Assembly (NCBI RefSeq): GCF_040954835.1
Contig: NC_090708.1
Coordinates: forward strand, 26,982,001 to 27,046,000
Direction of reading: 5' to 3'
Origin: Lepisosteus oculatus
Taxonomy: Eukaryota; Chordata; Actinopteri; Semionotiformes; Lepisosteidae
Length of the DNA stretch: 64,000 nucleotides
The translations under genes and the position numbers were made by a program. Positions 10,801-62,426 of this stretch are shown here, one piece after another. The notes beneath the pieces were generated by a model. The model was not told the origin of the DNA, made no database searches, and was given only the letters and a program-made list of their open reading frames with translations. The stretch's first letter is position 1. The number at the start of each line of letters is the position of its first letter.

Positions 10801-13241
10801 GTATATCAAACGTTTTAAATATAAATGATAACTAATTTACATTATGCATTTGCAGGTTGATGTATGCTGTAGCTACATAAGCCTCTGTTTAGAATTAATA
10901 TAATACAGTACAGTTTACCTTTTTGATGGTTTCGCATGAAAGGACTCTGTTAACAGGTATATCGTATTTTACGTAAGTAAGACGATTCTGACTTTTAGAT
11001 TTTGTTTCTGATTTTATTTAAATAAACTGAACAATGAATTGCGTAGAGAACTCCAGGAAATGGAATCAATTGAAAATAAAGGATACATTTAGCTTTACTG
11101 TGGTACTCGCGGAGACGCACGTATATTAATCTATATAAAAAACTTTTTTTAAAACCACGTTACACATAGTATTCGTGTGATGTAGCAGTAGTAGGGTGCT
11201 ATAATTCATAATTAACATTAAACAAAGTCTTATAACATTTTATACAAATTAGTTTTGTTCTGGGTGGAAGTCGAGACAATCGTGTGTTAATTTCAGTAGC
11301 GTGCAGCGGATTTTACAATCTTCATTAGGGTGTCACAAATATAGTTTAAACCGATAGATCTTTCGCCAGTCGTTACGTATTATAAAGTTTTATTTAAAAA
11401 ATAAAAACAAGTGAGGGTAATTTTTTTATTATTTATATTCGAAGCAGCTTATCCCACACCGATCAAAACAGGAGCTGCGGCTACTGGCTGCCTCGGTAAT
11501 GCCTGTTAAAAGCATTTCAGCCCCCAGACATATGTTAAAAGACCCAAATAGGGCTTATGTCGTCGAAATTCCTTGTTAATTTCTGGGGGTGTCTGGCGGC
11601 CTTCCTGGCATTTCGGGGCCACACGCAGCGGCCTTGATTTAGATGTATGTGTCCCCTCCTCTCTGTATTTGACTTAATCATTACAAAGCTTTTGTGGTAT
11701 ATTCAACGTACTCTAGCCGATTAAGTTGTTCAGGAGAAAATCTTAAAACAAAAGTGCGGACGTTATGTGGCCTCTAATCACCACTATATAACCGATGAAA
11801 TCACATTTATTTTAAGTTCTACTAAAGCTAGGCTACCAGAAAAACAATTGTAAGAACTAAAACAGTCTATAGTAAGAATATGAAGCACTGATATCAGCAC
11901 CCTGTACATATGTATAGTTTGTAGTGAATAAGTGCAATCCATCCATGCATTTTCTAACTGTTCTTCCAATTCACGGTCTCAGGGGAGCCGGACTCTACAC
12001 CTTCAAGCAACAGGCGCAAAGCAGGATATACCCTGCCACACACACTGACACGCAAACACTATACCAGGGCCAATTTTCATAGCAGCTAATTAACATACTA
12101 GTATGTCTTTGGACTGTGGGAGGAAACCCTTGTGAACATGGAGCGAACATTTTAAACTCCACTGAGTACCTCAGCAGATCAACCCAGGGCCTTGGCACTA
12201 ATCATGGTGTCACGGATTGAAGGTGAGAGATCAGAGGTGCTGCTTCCTGGTCACCATTCCTTCACTCAAGAGCGTGACTAGATTTTTTAAAGGTCCCTTT
12301 TGACCACATTCAGAAAGTAAGTTGTGTTGTGTTGGCTGCCACTTTCATACTTTGGAAACAGACACTAAATATTGCATAATCAAGGGAATATCTATCTGTA
12401 GGTGCAGTGTGTCCTGCCAGAGCCAGAATGAATCTGCTGTTTCTTTGGCAGATCCTAGCCCACTTACCCTTAGGGTACAGCTAAAACTAGTGTTCCTTCA
12501 GGAAATTGTGTAAAATGTCAACATGTTAGAAAAGATATTGCTGCTCTGGATTCAGTCCAGAGAAGAAAATGCATTCTAGAGCTTAAAGAGATGTCTGACT
12601 GACAGACTGAAGGATTTGAATCTTTTTAGTTTTGAACAGACTACAAAGGGTACCTGATTCTAGTCCTCAAAGGGATTTTGCTCAGTGGACTTCTTCGGTA
12701 TCGTGGAAACACAAATCAGAAATCAGAAAGCACCAGTGGAAACTGAGGGACAAGTGCAGTTCAATCAGAGAACAGTGGGTGTTTCTTTACAAAAAAAAAT
12801 GTGGGAATATGAAACAAGCAGTGTTTTTCAAACAAGAAATGTCTGGATGGTGTTGGCTTTGAATTAGCTACTAATTATCAAATGGTCCAGACAGCTCCAT
12901 CTAGTTTGTTATCTTATGTTCTTAACACAAGTAGTACAGAGGTCATTTATAATATAAAGGGTCGACCTTCCCAGGGGGACGCCTGGGGGAATTATATCAC
13001 AATAGTCTCCTATTACATCTGGTTATTTTTATAGGGACTCTTAAATTAGCCACCTTTGAGATGTAACGTCCTGGATGAATTTGTTTAATCATGTTATTTT
13101 CCTTAAAAACAGGAGTGGCAAATAGTTCACGTACATTTTCTTCCAAGTCTGCTTGGAAGGATCTGAGGTTAGGCAGCATGCGTGTTTCTCATTCTGCGCT
13201 GTCTCTTTCCGTCTCTCCCTGTGTCATTCTACATGCCCCAG
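10800..13241. other. Presumed N6AMT1 first intron
   Basis: No coding signal is recognised. It contains the minus-strand dispersed repeat at 11,940-12,190. A long pyrimidine tract leads to the acceptor ...CATGCCCCAG at 13,241, suggesting that the exon with the start codon is spliced to an upstream noncoding exon. Confidence 0.45.
11940..12190 (-). repeat. Dispersed repeat tail
   Basis: It shares GGACTGTGGGAGGAAACC and the AGCAACAGGCGCAAAGCAGG stretch with the split repeat at 40-790. Confidence 0.5.
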
Positions 13242-13249
13242 GTGCAGTT

Positions 13250-16200
13250 ATGTTGCCCACCCCCGTGTGCGCCCATGTGGGGCGTGGGCCCTTCTCCGAT
13301 GTGTATGACCCTGCAGAGGACTCCTTCCTGATGATGGACGCACTGGAGCGGGATGCGGAGATGCTGCGTCGGCTGAAGTAAGCGGTCTCCCTTTCCTTTT
13401 CAGTGTATGATACTTAACAGATACTGACTCCAGGACAGCCATTTTCCTCTTATAGCTGGCAGAGGAGTGAGTGGCTCATATTCTCCTGTCTGATTTGCAG
13501 GCAGCACTGCTATGGATTCACAGAAATGTTGGCAAATTACTTGTTAATTACTTATTCCATTTATTTCCTCGCTATGGTTTTGACTGTTTTGAGCAGTGCA
13601 TACCCACATTCTGTCCAGTCTGACTGTCTTGCACTACAGTTGCCTTTCTCTCCTGGAACTCATCCAGCTAGAACATAGTCCGTGTATCTATTAAACCCAG
13701 GGTCAAGATATTGTGACTGGATTCTGAATCACTGGGAAACTGAGTAGTATTGCAAGGCAGTTTGATTTAGGAGGTGCAGGCACATGTACAGAAAACTCAA
13801 TTGAAACAGAAAAGCAGAAAATATACTATACTGCAAGCAGTCCTTGGACTTCTGTTCCTAAAAATATGGCCAAAAGCTGAAATGACATACAGTAAGTTGA
13901 GATTGAAATTTAATAGAAAAACAGTAACATAATAGGCAGTTACATTCTTCACCAAGGGACCGATATGCAGCATTTTATAGATTATATAAAGAAAATATGC
14001 ATTGATTGTTGATTGCTTTAAGGCCTGTGCACATCTTGCATTTGCTTTAAGAATTGTGTTCTGAGTTGTATGTACCACATTCAGTTGCCTTCAGAATTTG
14101 CAATCCTTTCTAATTGATATTACTTAAAATATTTATTTAAAGCATATTGACATTACTTAAAGGATAGAATGAAAATGCTACACAAATTGTATTCATTTTA
14201 TCCTAAAGAACAATGCTCTAGCGTTTAATAAGTCTAGAGGTTTCACACTGCAGCATGTCCAGATGCAGACTGGGTGGTGTCTGTATCGTTGCACACAGTA
14301 TTTCCATGTTGTGTCATAGAAACAGGTCAATCCTCCGTGAGTAGTAGTAAGTGGGAATTGGAGACCTGTGTGTTGAGGCTGTATTTAACATCACCAAGTC
14401 TTCAACTGCTAAATCGTGAAGTAAATGCAATCCCTGTAGTAGTGTATCTCTGTCATGAGATCAGCAGGTTGCTAATGGAGGTCACTGTTTGTCTTCAGCC
14501 CGTCTGTATGTCTGGAGGTGGGCAGTGGCTCTGGTGTACTTTCTGCATTCCTGGCCTCCATCGTGGGACCTAAAGCAGTGTATTTGTGAGTCTACCTCAA
14601 TGAGTTCATGTCTTCATGAAACCATGGTCTCAATACCACCCCCTCAGGTGCTGACCTAGATCAGTAGTATTTGAAATGAAGAACTTGAGTGACTTTCAGC
14701 AGCTGTTTCCTGTATTTCACTGTGTTCCCTGTGCTGTTCAAAGTCTTGGGAATCAGTCAGAACAGGATGGTATGCCCCTGTGTTGTGTGTTCATGTGAGC
14801 TGAGATTTCTGTCCTCTGCAGCTGTACAGATGTGAACCCTGCAGCAGTGCTGTGTACTATGGAAACTGCTCGCTGTAATGATGTCTCCCTTCAGCCACTC
14901 ATCACAGACCTGGTGAGCACTGTTCTGTCACTGCGTACTGCACTCCTGCTTTTGGTGTTTTCTCTCATGTTACACTTGTTTCTGAGTCTCTCATCATAGC
15001 TCTGCGTTAACAACAAATTTAACCTGTGCAAGTGTCTCAGCCCTAACTGCTTCACTCACTCTAACCTGGCCTCTCAGCTTTAGGCATTAGTCCAAACTCC
15101 TTCTCAGAATTGAGTTTGGTTGTTGAGTTCTAACAACTGACCTATGCTGCCTCCCTCTCTCACAGTCTCGGCTCTAACTGCTATCCCATGCTGCCTCCCT
15201 TTTTCAGCTGTACCTGCTATCCCACACTGCCTTCCTCTCAACCAGTCTTGGCTCTAAGTGCTATCCAACACTACTGCTTCTCTCTTTAACCACGGTCCCA
15301 TACTGCCTTTTTTCCCATTTCTTGGCTCTAGCTTCTATCCTTTGCTGCCTCCCTCTCTCTCTGTCTCAGCTGTAACCGCTGTCCCACAGTACCTCCTATT
15401 CATGGCTTTACCTGCTGTCCCACACTGCTTCTCCCAGTCTTGGCTCTACACACTGTCCAGTACTGCCACTCTCTCCAGTTCCTGAGTTCCTGTTGCTACC
15501 TTGTCTTCCCTCCTTCTCCCAATCCCTGAGCTCCTGCCTCTGTTTTCAGTCCGTGCTGACCAAGTACTGTTTTTCTGTCACAGGTGGAAGCTATCCTGCC
15601 CAGGCTGCGGGAGAACGTGGATGTCCTTCTCTTCAACCCTCCCTACGTTGTGACCCCCACAGAGGAGGTGAGAAGACGGCCCTGCACACCAGGTCTGCAG
15701 CTGCATTGTTTCCAGTGCTGTTGCCATGGAAATGAGTGCTGCTTGCCCTTGACAGGAGAAGCAGACTGATAACGATGTCTGAAGGGGACAAAATGTTTTT
15801 CATTTTACATTTTATCTTTGTAAGCATACGTCATTAGTGAAGAGGAGAAAATGTGTATTGCTTGCTGCAGAAAAGTGAAGCATTTCAGAAGGATTAGCTT
15901 AATGGTCCTGTCTCTCCATTCACAGGTGGGCAGCCATAGCATCGAGGCTTCCTGGGCTGGGGGCAGGCGTGGCCGAGAGGTGATGGACAGGCTGTTTCCA
16001 CTGGTGCCACAGCTGCTGTCCAGCCAGGGCCTTTTTTACTTAGTTACTGTGCAGGACAACGACCCAGGTAAGAAGTGAGGCCTGTTTTCTGCTAGTTTAA
16101 GATGGACATTCTTTCTTAAGAGTAAAAATGTTGTTTTAAAACATACAATTCAAAGTTACTTGTTTACATCCCTTTATGCCTGTTGTTAAATATGAGCGTT

Positions 16201-18655: not shown

Positions 18656-37386
<18,731 letters not shown>

Positions 37387-43054: not shown

Positions 43055-46000
43055 CTAAGCGCAGACTCTGAGGGTGTCCGAATGCAGCAGGGGCAGATCG
43101 GGGGCGAGGAGAAGCTCCTGTCCAAGGGCGGTGTCTTTCAGGGCAAACAGAGTGACTCCTGACTTGTATGCTGCTGGGATCACAATGTGCGTCATTCTGG
43201 GGTCATTCTCTTCCTCACGCACCATCTGCCTTACCTGGCCTGCCACAGGACACAGTATATTGTGATACACAATACTAGTAATCGTCATCATCATCATCAA
43301 GTGCAAGCTTCACAACATGAAAAACACTACCTATGAATTGAACTTCACGGCAGAAGTGATAAATTTAGTTTCTATTAAAAAATGTAAAAATTAAATTAGT
43401 AATTTAATTAAATTAAGAAAAGTACAAAAGCATTATAAAACTGGCAAGGCAGCTTTGAAGAAGGGCCTAGGGCAGTAACTAATAATGCTCCTGGAGGCCA
43501 AAACAGAAAAAACATAGAGATGAAGTTTGAAAGAGACTGACAAATGGAGAAGCTAACAGTCAGGCCCTGGGCTCTTCTCACCTGCCACGTCTAGAATGTC
43601 CCAGCAGGGGTCAGTGTGTCCCTGAGGCAATACCGAGACCGGTGTATCAGCTGTCAGCCTCTGCAGGACATCCTCTCTCCTCACCAACAGCACCGAATCA
43701 CTGCACAGACGCTGCTGCACCACCTGAGCGCTCACTGGAAATACACACACTGATCACAGAGAGTTTCACTGGAAATACACACACTGATCACAGAGAGGCT
43801 CACTGGAAATACACACCGATCACAGATCAGGTTTACTGGAAATACACACACTGATCACAGAGAATCTCACTGGAAATACACACACTGATCACAGAGAGGC
43901 TCACTGGAAATACACACACTGATCACAGAGAGGCTCACTAGAAATACAAACACTGATCACAGAGAGTCTCCCTGGAAATACAAACTGATCACAGATCAGG
44001 CTCACTGGTCATACACATGCTGATCACAGAGAGTCTCCCTGGAAATACACACACTGATCACAGAGAGTCTCACTGGAAATACACACACTGATCACAGAGA
44101 GTCTCACTGGAAATACACACACTGATCAGAGAGAGGCTCACTGGAAATACACACACTGATCACAGAGTCTCTCTGGAAATACACACACTGATCACAGAGA
44201 GGCTCCCTGGAAATACACACTGATCACAGATCAGGCTCACTGGACATACACATGCTGATCACAGAGAGTCTCCCTGGAAATACACACACTGATCACAGAG
44301 TCTCACTGGAAATACACACACTGATCAGAGAGAGGCTCCCTGGAAATACACACACTGATCACAGAGTCTCACTGGAAATACACACACTGATCAGAGAGAG
44401 GCTCCCTGGAAATACACACACTGATCACAGAGAGGCTCACTGGAAATACACACACTGATCATAGAAAGTTTCAATGCATACAGTAATTGATATTTAATTG
44501 AAAAGGGTCTCATTGCAAGCACACACTGATCAGAGAGGGTCTCTCTGCACACACATAATGACTCAGTGCTGAGTCAAACACTGCATTCAAACACTGACTG
44601 AACATGATTTCAACCTTAAATCCTTTACAGAACAAACAGAGAGAACTAAAGAAGAAAAACAGTTGTGTCTCAGGGACAGGCCAGTCGGTTCCCACCACTG
44701 CAGCTCACTCACCCACATCCAGGGGGTTTGTCATGTAAACGGCACTGGGTGTGACGCCAAAGATGAGTTGGTGGTGCCAGGCATCAGGCACCTCCTCACC
44801 CTCGGGCACTGCCAGCTGCATGTTCATGGTGGCAACAGGAACAGCACCCTTCCGGATCCATGAGGCCAGCCAGGGTACCAGAGCCAGCTGCCGGGATGGG
44901 TGGAGTGGGAAAAACCGGCCCAGCACCCGTCCACCACTTGCCCTCTCCGCACCCTCCACCAGCTGCTGGTGTGTGGCCCCTGGAAAAACACACACTGATC
45001 ACAAAGGGTCTCACTGGAAATACACACACTGATCACAGAGAGTCTCACTGGAAATACACACACTGATCACAGAGAGTCTCACAGGGAATACACACACTGA
45101 TCACAGAGAGTCTCACAGGGAATACACAAACTGGTCACAGAGAGTCTCGCTGGAAATACACACATTGATCACAGGGAGTCTCGCTAGAAATATACAAACT
45201 GGGACAGCAGAAAGACATACACAAGCCCTCAGCCCTCAACCCTGAACAGCACAGCATGGACTTCAACACCACCAGACCCAGAGGATCGATACCAGTGGTT
45301 CCAACCACATCCTCAGTTACATTTATGGTCTAATTATTTTATTAGCTGCATAACTGGAATATAAGTCCAATTAAGCTCCAAGGTGGTTTATAGTTAACTG
45401 TACCTTAAATGCCTTGTGTAATCACCTGTAAAAGACCTTAAGAAAAATCCTATCTGTGTCTAATTTAGAAAACAATGAGGTTAATTGTCTAATTGAAGAT
45501 TCAGGTCAGAACAAAGACTAAAAGACACAAGGCCTTTCAGCAACAGAGTCTGAGACTCCTGGTTTATAAGACTCTTTAAATCAGCAATATATTAAGACTT
45601 GAGGGAAGGCAATGATCACTTCCAGTCAGCTCTCGTAAACAATGAGCACAGGGTAAATGAACACTGACAATCGTTTGCCTGCGAAGGTGCAGCTGTCCCT
45701 ACTCTGCACTGGTACACTAGGACTGTGCCCAACACCTCCAAATGCAGCTCCTGTCTCTGGGACCTCGCAGTGTCCAGGCTCACTGTCGCTCAGTGCTCAA
45801 CGTTCCACACTCTGCTGCTGACAGACTGAAGGCACAGATCACAGACCACTGGGAGGCGCTGTCCCACACACAAGGACACGGCATCACACTCAACTTGGGG
45901 CTTTATTAAGATTTTTACACTTTTTTGTCAGTTGAATTCAGTTGAGGCTGTTGCTTCAGGATGGTTTCCACAAAACTGAATATGAAGCTGGACAAGAGTA

Positions 46001-46594
46001 ATAAATCCCCCCACGTAATTAGACTCGTTAATGAATTAACTGAGAGCCTGGATTGGGAGCCTGAAAGACTGCAGGCACTGTGGCTGACACCCCTTGCTCT
46101 TAAGAATGTATGTTCTAATGCGAACGTGTTCTGGCAGAGAACACGTAATAAGAACATGTGCGACCTGTTCATGAGAACGTGAGAGCAAAACAATCGCGTC
46201 TGGGTCAGCTTCTTTCACAATGCCCGTATTGAGTTAGTATTTTGACTAACGCCTAGAGGCCACTTTAAACATGATTTCTCCTCCTCCGTGGACCTTATCC
46301 GCTGTCAGTACTGGAACAAAAAGGAAAGCTCGTACCAGCCTGGCTCCGGGAGAGCAGATACTCCGGGAGAGGGGCCTCGTTTTGACGCAGGCGTGTCTGG
46401 ACGCAGCGGTCCGCGTCCTCGGCCGTCACGCTGATCCCCAGGACCTGCAGCACGTCCACTACAGCAGTAGCCCCACATGCCGACGCCCCGATCTGGAGGG
46501 TCTGCCGCTGCACGGCCTCGTCTATCGTCCACAGCATCGCGGCAGCTCCCTCCTCCCCCTCACTGTTGTATCCATTTCCCCCGTCCAACTCCAT
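43055..46594 (-). CDS. Unnamed gene, predicted C39-like papain-fold peptidase
   Basis: I do not recognise this gene by name. Four exons on the minus strand: 46336-46594, 44713-44979, 43582-43734 and 43055-43239. All introns are GT-AG and phase 1, and the model gives 287 residues. Residues 34-46 read QIGASACGATAVV: a Gln six residues before Cys40-Gly, the usual start of C39-like cysteine peptidase folds. Residues 152-161 read DAWHHQLIFG and 168-175 YMTNPLDV, matching the His and Asp/Asn-Pro positions of that fold. About 110 further residues follow without a known domain. No signal peptide or membrane segment is seen. The start at 46,594 has G at -3 and +4; the frame is open upstream to a TTTCTGCAG acceptor at about 46,660, so a noncoding first exon is likely. 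The peptidase activity is inferred from motifs only. Confidence 0.8.
43735..44480. repeat. 34-bp minisatellite, array 1
   Basis: About 22 tandem units of 34 bp, core CTGGAAATACACACACTGAT on the plus strand, with degenerate ones to about 44,560. In the orientation of the surrounding gene each unit ends TGTATTTCCAG, and the exon-proximal unit supplies the acceptor of exon 3 (43,734). Confidence 0.9.
44980..45205. repeat. 34-bp minisatellite, array 2
   Basis: About 6-7 units of the same 34-bp repeat as array 1, ending exactly at the acceptor of exon 2 of the peptidase-like gene (TTTTTCCAG at 44,988-44,980). Confidence 0.88.
45206..46335. other. Rest of intron 1 of the peptidase-like gene
   Basis: No exon, RNA gene or named repeat recognised. 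The donor after exon 1 is CTG|gtacga at 46,336/46,335. Confidence 0.4.
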
Positions 46595-46999
46595 CCCCCC
46601 GGGGCTATGAAGTCCAAGACCAGACAGCCAGCCCAAGCGTGGGACTAGAGCCCGGCACTGCAGAAACAGACACAGTGGTTCATGTGTTAACACCAACAAG
46701 AGGTAACATGAAGATTCAGTTTCTAGTTGTCAGAAAAATCTCTGTATGCTGATTTGGGTGGTCTGTAAAAACGGGAGTAAACCGATCTTCATATAAAATA
46801 AATATTCTTTAATATAATAACAATCAAAGATGTTGCCGCTTCAAGAAGCGTTTGAAATCACAAACCAGACGAGAAAATGTTATTTTTATATTCATTTATT
46901 ATGTTCAATAGATGTACTGAAACCCAGTTCATTTAGTTATCGTAAAACACAAATGTTAAAGAGTTACGAGGCTTCGAAAATAGTATCCCTGAGTAACTT

Positions 47000-50800: not shown

Positions 50801-51571
50801 CACGCCAACAACTATCCATTACAATCCTGTACAGTTACAGGATTAGAATACTGTAAATATTCATGAATACAAATGCATTCAGTAAAATATCTATAGCAAT
50901 TTTTATTTTTTTCATGAGATAGTTTGTGGTAATGGGAAGAATAATTATAGCAATTGTGAGTATCATAAGATTTCAGGTTTTGTCATTGGTGTGGCTTGAA
51001 AAGAGACTATATCAAAGTCTTCAGGCTGGAGGACTTAATGGATTGAATTACTTTTTGACAAAACATGTTATGAAAAATGCAGAGCCCTAAACATGATAAA
51101 TGAAACTGGATGGGAAGAGTTTGAGTGGGGAGCTGCATCAGCATGTGTTAAATGCAAAGTGCAAGCTGAGCATAATTTTAATTCTTACTAGGAGAAAAAT
51201 TAAACACTTATATTTCAGCATGGATTAGCTCTAGATCATAAGACTGGTAAAAGTAGACTAGTGTATCTTTGACTCATGCATGCCATTGTTGCAGATTCAT
51301 GTGACATGTTTCCTTTTAATGATCTTATCTCAGGTTCATCATTATTTTTTTCTTGTAATAAATCTTGTACAGTATTACATTTCAGAGGCACCAAACACAA
51401 AATAGAATGATGCTACTGGATGCGAGTTTTGTTATACAACTTAAAATGAATGAAAATGCTAATGTAAAACAAATATTCTTGTCACGGTCTCATACGAGGT
51501 GTTTGCCTCTTTGTGGCTCCCTTACTCTTTTCACGATTTCATGAATCTGATTTTCTTCTGTCTTAATTGGC
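47850..51571. other. Presumed DNAJC28 first intron
   Basis: No coding exon recognised. It contains a TTTATTGATCCTGAAGGG repeat at about 48,860, the inverted repeat at 49,153-49,268 and a LINE-like dispersed segment at about 50,240-50,420. A noncoding first exon ending CTGACAAG|gttagttg at about 48,001 is possible but unproven. Confidence 0.35.
49153..49268. repeat. Long inverted repeat (50-bp arms, 16-nt loop)
   Basis: Arms 49,153-49,202 and 49,219-49,268 are reverse complements with a few mismatches; the inner 30 bp (around GAAAAGAGAAGAAAGGAAAC) is nearly exact. The right arm continues into a dispersed repeat also present at 26,497-26,625, so this looks like two copies of one family meeting head to head. 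Confidence 0.8.
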
Positions 51572-51606
51572 AGCTGAGTTGCTCCTCAGCTGGAGTGTCA
51601 GTGAGG

Positions 51607-52737
51607 ATGAGCTGCTCCTGGCTACTGTGGCATCTTGCCCTGGAGGTCCACGAGGCCCTGTTGCCCTTCCGATGTCCCCCTGCCCGCTGGCTGGCGAGTT
51701 ACAGGATGAACCCCAGCTTGCAGGACAGTTACCGCCTGCTGCAGCTGTCCAGGGAGGGGGGCAGCAGCCCTGCCGAAGTGAAAGAGGCCTACCTACGGCT
51801 CGCCAAGCAGTACCACCCTGATAGCGGGGCTCTCTGTACCGACCCGCACAAGTTCTCCCAGCTGGTGGCGGCGTACCGAGCCGTGTTGGCACACCTGGCG
51901 CAGCAAAACGAGAAGGCGCGCCAATCTGGGGAAGAAGAGGAGGAGGAGGAAGACGGCAAGTCCAGGCTGCAGGCACCACAGCACAGGCAGTACCTCAGCT
52001 TTGAGGGGGTGGGCTTGGGCACGCCCAGCCAGCGAGAGCGGCAATACCGTCAGTTCCGAGTGGACCGGGCCACGGAGCAGGTGCTGGACTACCGTCGCCG
52101 GGAGTTTGAACGGCAGGCAGGGGAGGAGGGCGCGTTGATGGCGCAGGAGGTGCGGCGGAGCAGCCGGCAGGTCAAGATCACGCAGGCGGTGGAGCGGCTG
52201 GTGGAGGACCTCATCCAGGAGTCCATGGCTAAGGGTGACTTCAGCAACCTGCGCGGGGCAGGCAAGCCTCTCGGCAAGTTCAGCCACAACCCCTACGCTG
52301 ACCCCATGACTCACAACCTCAACCGCATCCTCATCGACAATGGCTACCAGCCGGAGTGGATCGTGGCGCAGAAGGAGATCCGCGAGACGGTAGACAAGCT
52401 AAGGGCCAGGCTCCTGGCGTCAAGGGGCCGGCTGGGGGACCCCCTCTCCCCTGCGGAGCAGCGGCTTTGGCAGCAGGAGTGTAAGGCCTTTGGCGAGGAG
52501 CTGGCCAAGCTCAACAAGAAGGTGGACAACTTCAACCTCATCGTACCCTTGCTGAGCCGTCAGATGGTGCACTTCAGCCTAGAGAGGGAGCTGAAGAGAA
52601 CCCTGTGCGCTGACCAAGAGCTGAGAGCAGAGAGGGAGAGGGAAAAGGAGAGGAAGAAGGCCAAAGCTGACAAGTCTCAGCACACCAAACCCACCAAACC
52701 AGGCCTTTTCTCTTGGGTGCACAGTCTGCTCAAATAA
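51607..52737 (+). CDS. dnajc28: DNAJC28, J-domain protein with DUF1992
   Basis: DnaJ (Hsp40) family member C28. J domains stimulate Hsp70 ATPase; the exact role of DNAJC28 is little known. The coding region lies in one exon, 376 residues (human about 388). A strong acceptor, TTCTGTCTTAATTGGCAG at 51,555-51,572, means the open frame upstream of it is intronic, so the first ATG of the exon (51,607) is taken as the start. The J domain covers about residues 40-100 with the HPD motif at 70-72 (KQYHPDSG). An acidic stretch follows (109-115). The DUF1992 domain begins about residue 190 and includes DFSNLRGAGKPLG and NPYADPMTHNLNRIL. The C-terminal tail is Lys/Arg-rich. The hydrophobic, Arg-containing N terminus could be a mitochondrial presequence. 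Confidence 0.95.
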   Translation: MSCSWLLWHLALEVHEALLPFRCPPARWLASYRMNPSLQDSYRLLQLSREGGSSPAEVKEAYLRLAKQYHPDSGALCTDPHKFSQLVAAYRAVLAHLAQQNEKARQSGEEEEEEEDGKSRLQAPQHRQYLSFEGVGLGTPSQRERQYRQFRVDRATEQVLDYRRREFERQAGEEGALMAQEVRRSSRQVKITQAVERLVEDLIQESMAKGDFSNLRGAGKPLGKFSHNPYADPMTHNLNRILIDNGYQPEWIVAQKEIRETVDKLRARLLASRGRLGDPLSPAEQRLWQQECKAFGEELAKLNKKVDNFNLIVPLLSRQMVHFSLERELKRTLCADQELRAEREREKERKKAKADKSQHTKPTKPGLFSWVHSLLK

Positions 52738-61228: not shown

Positions 61229-61406
61229 TTTACTTTCAGTGCAGCAAACTCACTCCAGAAGTTCAGCGAGGATCTCTGAATGATCCAATGTTGTCCTAAA
61301 TGACTGATGGTGATAAATAGAATCCACCTGTGTGTAATCCAGTCTCTGTATAAATGCACCTGCTCTGTGATAGTCTCAAGGTTCTGTTGAAAGCACAGAG
61401 AGCATC

Positions 61407-62426
61407 ATGAAGAGAAAGGAACACACCAGGCAGGTCCGTAATACTGTTGTGGAGAAGTTTAAAGCCGGATTTGGATACAAAAAGATTTCCCAAGCTTCAA
61501 ACATCCCAAGGAGCACTGTGCAAGCGATCATCTTGAAATGGAAGGAGTATCAGACCACTGCAAATCTACCAAGACCTGGCCGTCCCTCTAAACTTTCAGC
61601 TCAGACAAGGAGAAGACTGATCAGAGATGCAGCCAAGAGGCCCATGATCACTCTGGATGAACTGCAGAGAACTACAGCTGAGGTGGGAGAGTCTGTCCAT
61701 AGGACAACAATCAGTCTTACACTGCACAAATCTGGCCTTTATGGAAGAGTGGCAAGAAGAAAGCCATTTCTCAAAGATATCCATAAAAAGTCTCGTCTAA
61801 AGTTTGCCACAAGCCACCTGGGAGACACCCCAAACATGTGGAAGAAGGTGCTCTGGTCAGATGAAACCAAAATCGAACTTTTTGGCCACAATGCAAAACG
61901 ATATGTTTGGCGTAAAAGCAACACAGCTCATCACCCTCAACACACCATCCCCACTGTCAAACATGGTGGTGGCAGCATCATGGTTTGGGCCTGCTTTTCT
62001 TCAGCAGGGACAGGGAAGATGGTTAAAATTGAGGGGAAGATGGATGCAGCCAAATACAGGACCATTCTGGATGAAAACCTGTTGGAGTCTGCAAAAGACC
62101 TGAAACTGGGACGGAGATTTATCTTCCAACAAGACAATGATCCCAAACATACAGCAAAATCTACAAAGGAATGGTTCACAAATAAACGTATCCAGGTGTT
62201 TGAATGGCCAAGTCAAAGTCCAGACCTGAATCCAATCGAGAATCTGTGGAAAGAGCTGAAAACTGCTGTTCACAAACGCTCTCCATCCAACCTCACTGAG
62301 CTCGAGCTGTTTTGCAAGGAAGAATGGGCAAGAATTTCAGTCTCTCGATGTGCAAAACTGATAGAGACATACCCCAAGCGACTTGCAGCTGTAATCGCAG
62401 CAAAAGGTGGCTCTACAAAGTATTAA
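61407..62426 (+). CDS. Tc1-family transposase, intact
   Basis: 339 residues, the normal length for Tc1 transposases. Residues 1-110 hold two helix-turn-helix DNA-binding regions (RQVRNTVVEKFKAGFGYKKI; RRRLIRDAAKRPMITLDELQ) joined by the GRPR-like PRPGRPSK at 55-62. The DDE catalytic triad is Asp152 (LWSDETKIELFG), Asp243 (QQDNDPKHTAKS) and Glu278 (PDLNPIENLWKEL), with 34 residues between the last two: the DD34E signature. The Gly-rich KHGGGSIMVW (185-194) is present. No stop or frameshift. The enzyme cuts and pastes the element at TA sites. Activity is likely but untested. Confidence 0.95.
   Translation: MKRKEHTRQVRNTVVEKFKAGFGYKKISQASNIPRSTVQAIILKWKEYQTTANLPRPGRPSKLSAQTRRRLIRDAAKRPMITLDELQRTTAEVGESVHRTTISLTLHKSGLYGRVARRKPFLKDIHKKSRLKFATSHLGDTPNMWKKVLWSDETKIELFGHNAKRYVWRKSNTAHHPQHTIPTVKHGGGSIMVWACFSSAGTGKMVKIEGKMDAAKYRTILDENLLESAKDLKLGRRFIFQQDNDPKHTAKSTKEWFTNKRIQVFEWPSQSPDLNPIENLWKELKTAVHKRSPSNLTELELFCKEEWARISVSRCAKLIETYPKRLAAVIAAKGGSTKY

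Follow-up and report, generated by a model that had tools for sequence, protein, structure and literature searches.

An unnamed four-exon gene between GART and DNAJC28 in Lepisosteus oculatus with a minisatellite at two splice acceptors and a plausible C39-like cysteine-peptidase motif

We analyzed a window of 64,000 nucleotides from the 1.2 Gb genome of Lepisosteus oculatus (contig NC_090708.1, C13, positions 26982001-27046000), in which an unnamed gene on the minus strand is flanked by GART on one side and by DNAJC28 on the other. The genes and exons of the window are as follows, with position 1 being its first letter:

23752-24171 and 25124-25495, minus strand: GART exons, AIRS_C matches to two frames
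43055..43239, minus strand: exon 4 of the unnamed gene, 185 bases including the stop codon TAG
43240..43581, minus strand: intron 3, 342 bp, GT-AG, phase 1
43582..43734, minus strand: exon 3, 153 bases
43735..44712, minus strand: intron 2, 978 bp, GT-AG, phase 1
44713..44979, minus strand: exon 2, 267 bases, encoding His155 and Asn171-Pro172
44980..46335, minus strand: intron 1, 1356 bp, GT-AG, phase 1
46336..46594, minus strand: exon 1, 259 bases from the start codon to donor 1, encoding Gln34 and Cys40-Gly41 (putative oxyanion-hole residue and nucleophile)
51463-52734, plus strand: DNAJC28, DJC28_CD and DnaJ matches
61374-62423: Tc1/Sleeping-Beauty-type transposase frame with HTH_Tnp_Tc3_2, DDE_3 and HTH_SB domains

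Further peptides located in the sequence from 21453 to 32597 are ones that we take to be GART-like. A first-pass annotation of this DNA had placed the unnamed gene next to GART, which is right in that GART (21.5-32.6 kb) and DNAJC28 (51.5-52.7 kb) flank it; the interval from 33 to 43 kb is only partly annotated. A plus-strand frame at 13079-13378, in which no Pfam match was found, presumably resembles the start of N6AMT1. The transposase frame runs for 350 codons without interruption.

The four exons of the unnamed gene join at GT-AG sites into 287 codons and a stop. This bore out the four phase-1 exons and 287-residue frame of the first-pass annotation, with the coordinates exact and the gene on the minus strand. 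Introns 1-3 have the donors GTACGAGC, GTGAGTGA and GTGAGAAG, which match the donor consensus at 6, 7 and 8 of 9 bases, and the acceptors TTTTTCCAG, TATTTCCAG and GTGGCAG, with pyrimidines at 9-10 of the 16 bases 5' of each; the splice sites are moderate. Both exon 2 and exon 3 begin and end in phase 1, a symmetry by which skipping of either retains the frame. The lengths of all three introns are multiples of 3. Upstream of the ATG the frame stays open as far as 46729 (46595-46729) and holds an acceptor-like CTGCAG, through which an additional upstream exon may be joined. The 1.5 kb that follow the stop codon contain three ATTAAA sites and no AATAAA.

Composition and frame statistics were examined over the joined coding sequence. 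GC content by codon position is 0.71/0.44/0.70, the exons are richer in GC than the introns (0.57-0.66 versus 0.36-0.45), and GC increases at exon 1. Shuffling the coding sequence 2,000 times never gave a stop-free version (mean 9.0 in-frame stops per shuffle). We also scored the exons with a small codon model, for which 585 codons of the GART and DNAJC28 exons served as the training set. The frame of the gene exceeded the other two same-strand frames in all four exons, but against the antisense frames it led in exons 1 and 2 only, with one antisense frame scoring higher in exon 3 (0.31 versus 0.03) and exon 4 (0.22 versus 0.05). The whole coding sequence scored 0.38 bits per codon compared with 0.21 +/- 0.07 for 500 composition-matched shuffles; since the shuffle maximum was 0.41, this score by itself is not beyond the shuffles. 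Judged by its sequence, the unnamed gene between GART and DNAJC28 looks like a real animal gene.

Two of the introns carry the same 34-bp minisatellite, in both cases directly at a splice acceptor:

43730..44465, no strand assigned: 21.9 copies of the minisatellite in intron 2, extending past the exon 3 acceptor and 5 bases into exon 3
44980..45201, no strand assigned: 6.5 copies of the minisatellite in intron 1, up to the exon 2 acceptor

The acceptor is part of the repeat unit. In intron 2, TATTTCCAG is found exactly in 18 copies other than the exon 3 acceptor, and intron 1 has three exact copies ahead of the exon 2 acceptor. A search of the whole genome with a 29-base core of this unit, allowing up to 3 mismatches, gave at least 23 matches, and all those reported lie in intron 1 (5) and intron 2 (18). 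Because 34 is not divisible by 3, gain of one unit would shift the frame. This arrangement resembles the 'mirages' of amphioxus, described in the part of that report used here as tandem repeats across exon-intron boundaries that leave regular splicing seemingly undisturbed (PMC3087553). In a literature search for a fish counterpart only the amphioxus paper surfaced, which is no evidence of absence. The minisatellite observation is firmer than the C39-like reading developed below, and it raises a separate question, namely how splicing selects the right acceptor among many near-identical copies.

The protein contains Gln34, Cys40-Gly41, His155/156 and Asn171-Pro/Asp174 at the positions given in the first-pass annotation, which had likened their layout to C39-like peptidases. 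Gln34 and Cys40 are 6 residues apart, His155 and Asn171 are 16 residues apart, Gly41 and Pro172 are present, and Cys40 lies 115 residues from His155. The same two spacings are found in LahT (Gln21/Cys27 and His101/Asp117; PMC6363468), in CvaB (Gln26/Cys32 and His105/Asp121, with Pro122 critical too; PMC3335142), both as given in parts of the respective reports, and in ComA as read off its PDB sequence (Gln11, Cys17-Gly18, His96, Asp112-Pro113). The order and C39 spacing of Gln, Cys, His and Asp/Asn agree between the protein and these three enzymes, with Asn as the third residue versus their Asp. Because only His155 and Asn171 fit the 16-residue spacing, we favored this pair as catalytic residues over His156 and Asp174, which were rejected. 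The full pattern Q-x5-C-G plus H-x15-[DN]-P occurred in 44 of 200,000 shuffles of the protein, and the motif without Gly and Pro in 7,850 of 200,000. When ungapped blocks around the Cys and His of two ComA proteins were slid along the sequence, exactly this register came first among the 262 and 260 positions, respectively, with block scores that were themselves equaled by 17 to 132 of 1,000 shuffles. Papain uses Asn as its third residue. How much the Gln matters is contested for C39 enzymes themselves: in the portions of the reports cited, the substitutions Q26A and Q26N affected CvaB only minimally (PMC3335142), and Gln21 lies 4.3 A from the oxygen in the LahT structure (PMC6363468).

Searches with family, profile and structure methods gave a different picture. 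When the 287-residue protein was compared with Pfam-A by hmmscan (E up to 10, with HMMER filters that discard most matches above E about 0.1), PF03412, PF13529, PF09778 and PF21646 were all unlisted and no ABC transporter domain was found. NCBIfam yielded no relevant match and PHROGs none at E up to 10, and the weak rows returned by family models were unrelated (WH2_Lhr, E 0.14, from Pfam; MADS3, E 0.085, from NCBIfam). There was no match by sequence in the PDB at E up to 10. Unforced MAFFT alignment left the catalytic residues unaligned, and hhalign to ComA and to the GUCD1 of the same genome aligned stretches other than the catalytic ones, with scores matched by 15 of 100 and 5 of 100 shuffles, respectively. 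A single-sequence structure model (mean pLDDT 35.9, pTM 0.22) has residues 42-51 as a helix, followed by strands 156-163 and 166-170, which is the order expected, at very low confidence; Foldseek of this model against the PDB returned 707 matches at E <= 10 and none at E <= 0.001. With a mean pLDDT of 35.9, neither the model nor its PDB search bears on whether the protein has the papain-like fold of clan CA, in which the catalytic residues are neighbors in space. What carries the C39-like assignment is the order and spacing of the motif residues. Thus, of the layout proposed in the first pass, the residue order and the Gln-x5-Cys and His-x15-Asp/Asn-Pro spacings hold, while family models fail to recognize the protein and the hhalign scores stay near those of shuffles. 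We consider the C39-like reading of the protein plausible, if unproven.

The gene is present once in its own genome as searched: exon 1 has a single genomic match, and the protein matches its own four exons. Two other matches (E 1.85 and 4.05) were rejected as paralogs. In the prokaryotic and viral contigs, exact peptides drew out 36 prokaryotic stretches and 1 viral stretch, and looser motif patterns drew out 107 prokaryotic and 65 viral ones; none of these was confirmed as a relative. These scans detect relatives that have short peptides in common and a tblastn match, and distant bacterial C39 proteins would therefore escape them. Against plasmids, tblastn gave three weak matches at E 0.5 or worse and no relative below E 0.5; one of these (H2), taken as a chance match, falls opposite to the strand of an annotated gene. 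No paper on this gene was found among the open-access papers listed for the terms used. Human papain-like proteins number 192 in a 2023 survey (PMC10318531), and the gene was not recognized, by name, among those named in the section of the survey used here, which names a part of them (PMC10318531).

We give about even chances to the reading that this is a functional animal gene whose product is a cysteine peptidase of C39-like papain fold, soluble and intracellular, which would cleave a specific cellular protein. Points for a peptidase are the spacings shared with LahT, CvaB and ComA, the 44 of 200,000 shuffles with the full pattern, the register chosen by the ComA blocks and the similar pattern in GUCD1 (see below). 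The sequence itself shows the exon structure, the intact frame and the order and spacing of the residues, and no second copy was found; fold, activity and substrate are inferred. The protein is predicted to be soluble because its N-terminus reads as acidic and, by eye, has no obvious signal or membrane segment. In the proposed mechanism the nucleophile that attacks the peptide carbonyl would be Cys40, positioned where a helix begins, and His155, on a later strand, would be the base that activates Cys40. Asn171, followed by Pro172, would orient and hold the His155 imidazole, and Gln34 would line the oxyanion hole and stabilize the oxyanion. The product of this chemistry would be the cleavage of one specific cellular protein, for which ACTMAP serves as our working analogy.

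That the exon chain arose by chance or is a decayed, non-functional gene seems very improbable to us. The moderate splice sites, the location of two acceptors within repeats and the lack of a relative in the prokaryotic and viral scans are compatible with it, as are the antisense frame that is ahead in exons 3 and 4 and a whole-sequence codon score inside the range of 500 shuffles. Against these stand 287 stop-free codons with consistent phases, the GC bias by codon position, the GC contrast between exons and introns and the increase in GC at exon 1. If the gene is real, the protein could have a different fold and the motif be coincidental. The motif was picked by eye from a long window, its reduced form is not rare (7,850 of 200,000 shuffles), and support from families and profiles is lacking (Pfam, NCBIfam, PHROGs, PDB, MAFFT, hhalign). 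However, both spacings match exactly, Gly41 and Pro172 come in addition, and ungapped block placement chose the same register, and we regard coincidence as somewhat unlikely.

A papain-like fold could also serve another purpose than proteolysis, with the protein acting as an acyltransferase (like BtrH_N) or as a catalytically weak or inactive scaffold. Consistent with this, papain-like families include the acyltransferase domain BtrH_N and inactive members, according to the survey section cited (PMC10318531), and the third residue here is Asn, while changing Asp121 to Asn abolished the secretion activity of CvaB in the part of that report used (PMC3335142). On the other hand, Gln, Cys, His and Asn-Pro are all there and are spaced as in active enzymes, and we judge a role other than peptidase to be unlikely. 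Returning to the peptidase reading, a more far-reaching version of it would have vertebrates possess a C39-like peptidase other than GUCD1 and ACTMAP, kept in fishes, missing among those human papain-like proteins that the 2023 survey section names, and dedicated to processing one cellular substrate. We offer this version tentatively and consider it rather doubtful. If the fold and activity are as proposed, a vertebrate genome would contain an uncharacterized C39-like peptidase with no assigned substrate.

Among known systems, a close resemblance is to the C39 bacteriocin-processing peptidase domains (PF03412) of ComA, LahT and CvaB, all of which share Gln-x5-Cys and His-x15-Asp/Asn with the 287-residue protein. 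Cys-Gly is common to the protein and ComA, and the Pro that follows Asn here follows Asp in ComA and CvaB. In contrast to these enzymes, Asn replaces Asp, Cys and His are separated by 115 residues versus 79 in ComA, the PF03412 model gives no match and no ABC transporter domain is found. The single-domain C39 peptidases of Peptidase_C39_2 (PF13529), which have more structural decorations as described in the cited section of the survey (PMC10318531), are matched neither by the protein nor anywhere in a six-frame search of the genome (0 matches; 4 of 14 control genomes were matched, 3 above the cut-off). The first-pass annotation had called such peptidases best known from bacteria, a fair description, but the same genome also matches the vertebrate papain-like proteins GUCD1 and ACTMAP. 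GUCD1 (PF09778, Guanylate_cyc_2, papain-like), with matches above the cut-off on contig C22, likewise has Q-x5-C-G and a His ahead of Asn-Asn-Pro. It differs in its locus and in a His-Asn distance of 17 or 18 versus 16, and the protein has no significant sequence similarity to it and does not match PF09778. ACTMAP (C19orf54) is also at another locus, where its C-terminal family PF21646, unmatched by the protein, matches on contig C3. Human ACTMAP is described, in the part of the report used here, as a cytosolic cysteine protease of actin maturation with catalytic Cys132 and an AlphaFold model that resembles bacterial cysteine proteases (PMC13367750). It sets the precedent that an orphan peptidase of such a kind can prove to process a major protein.
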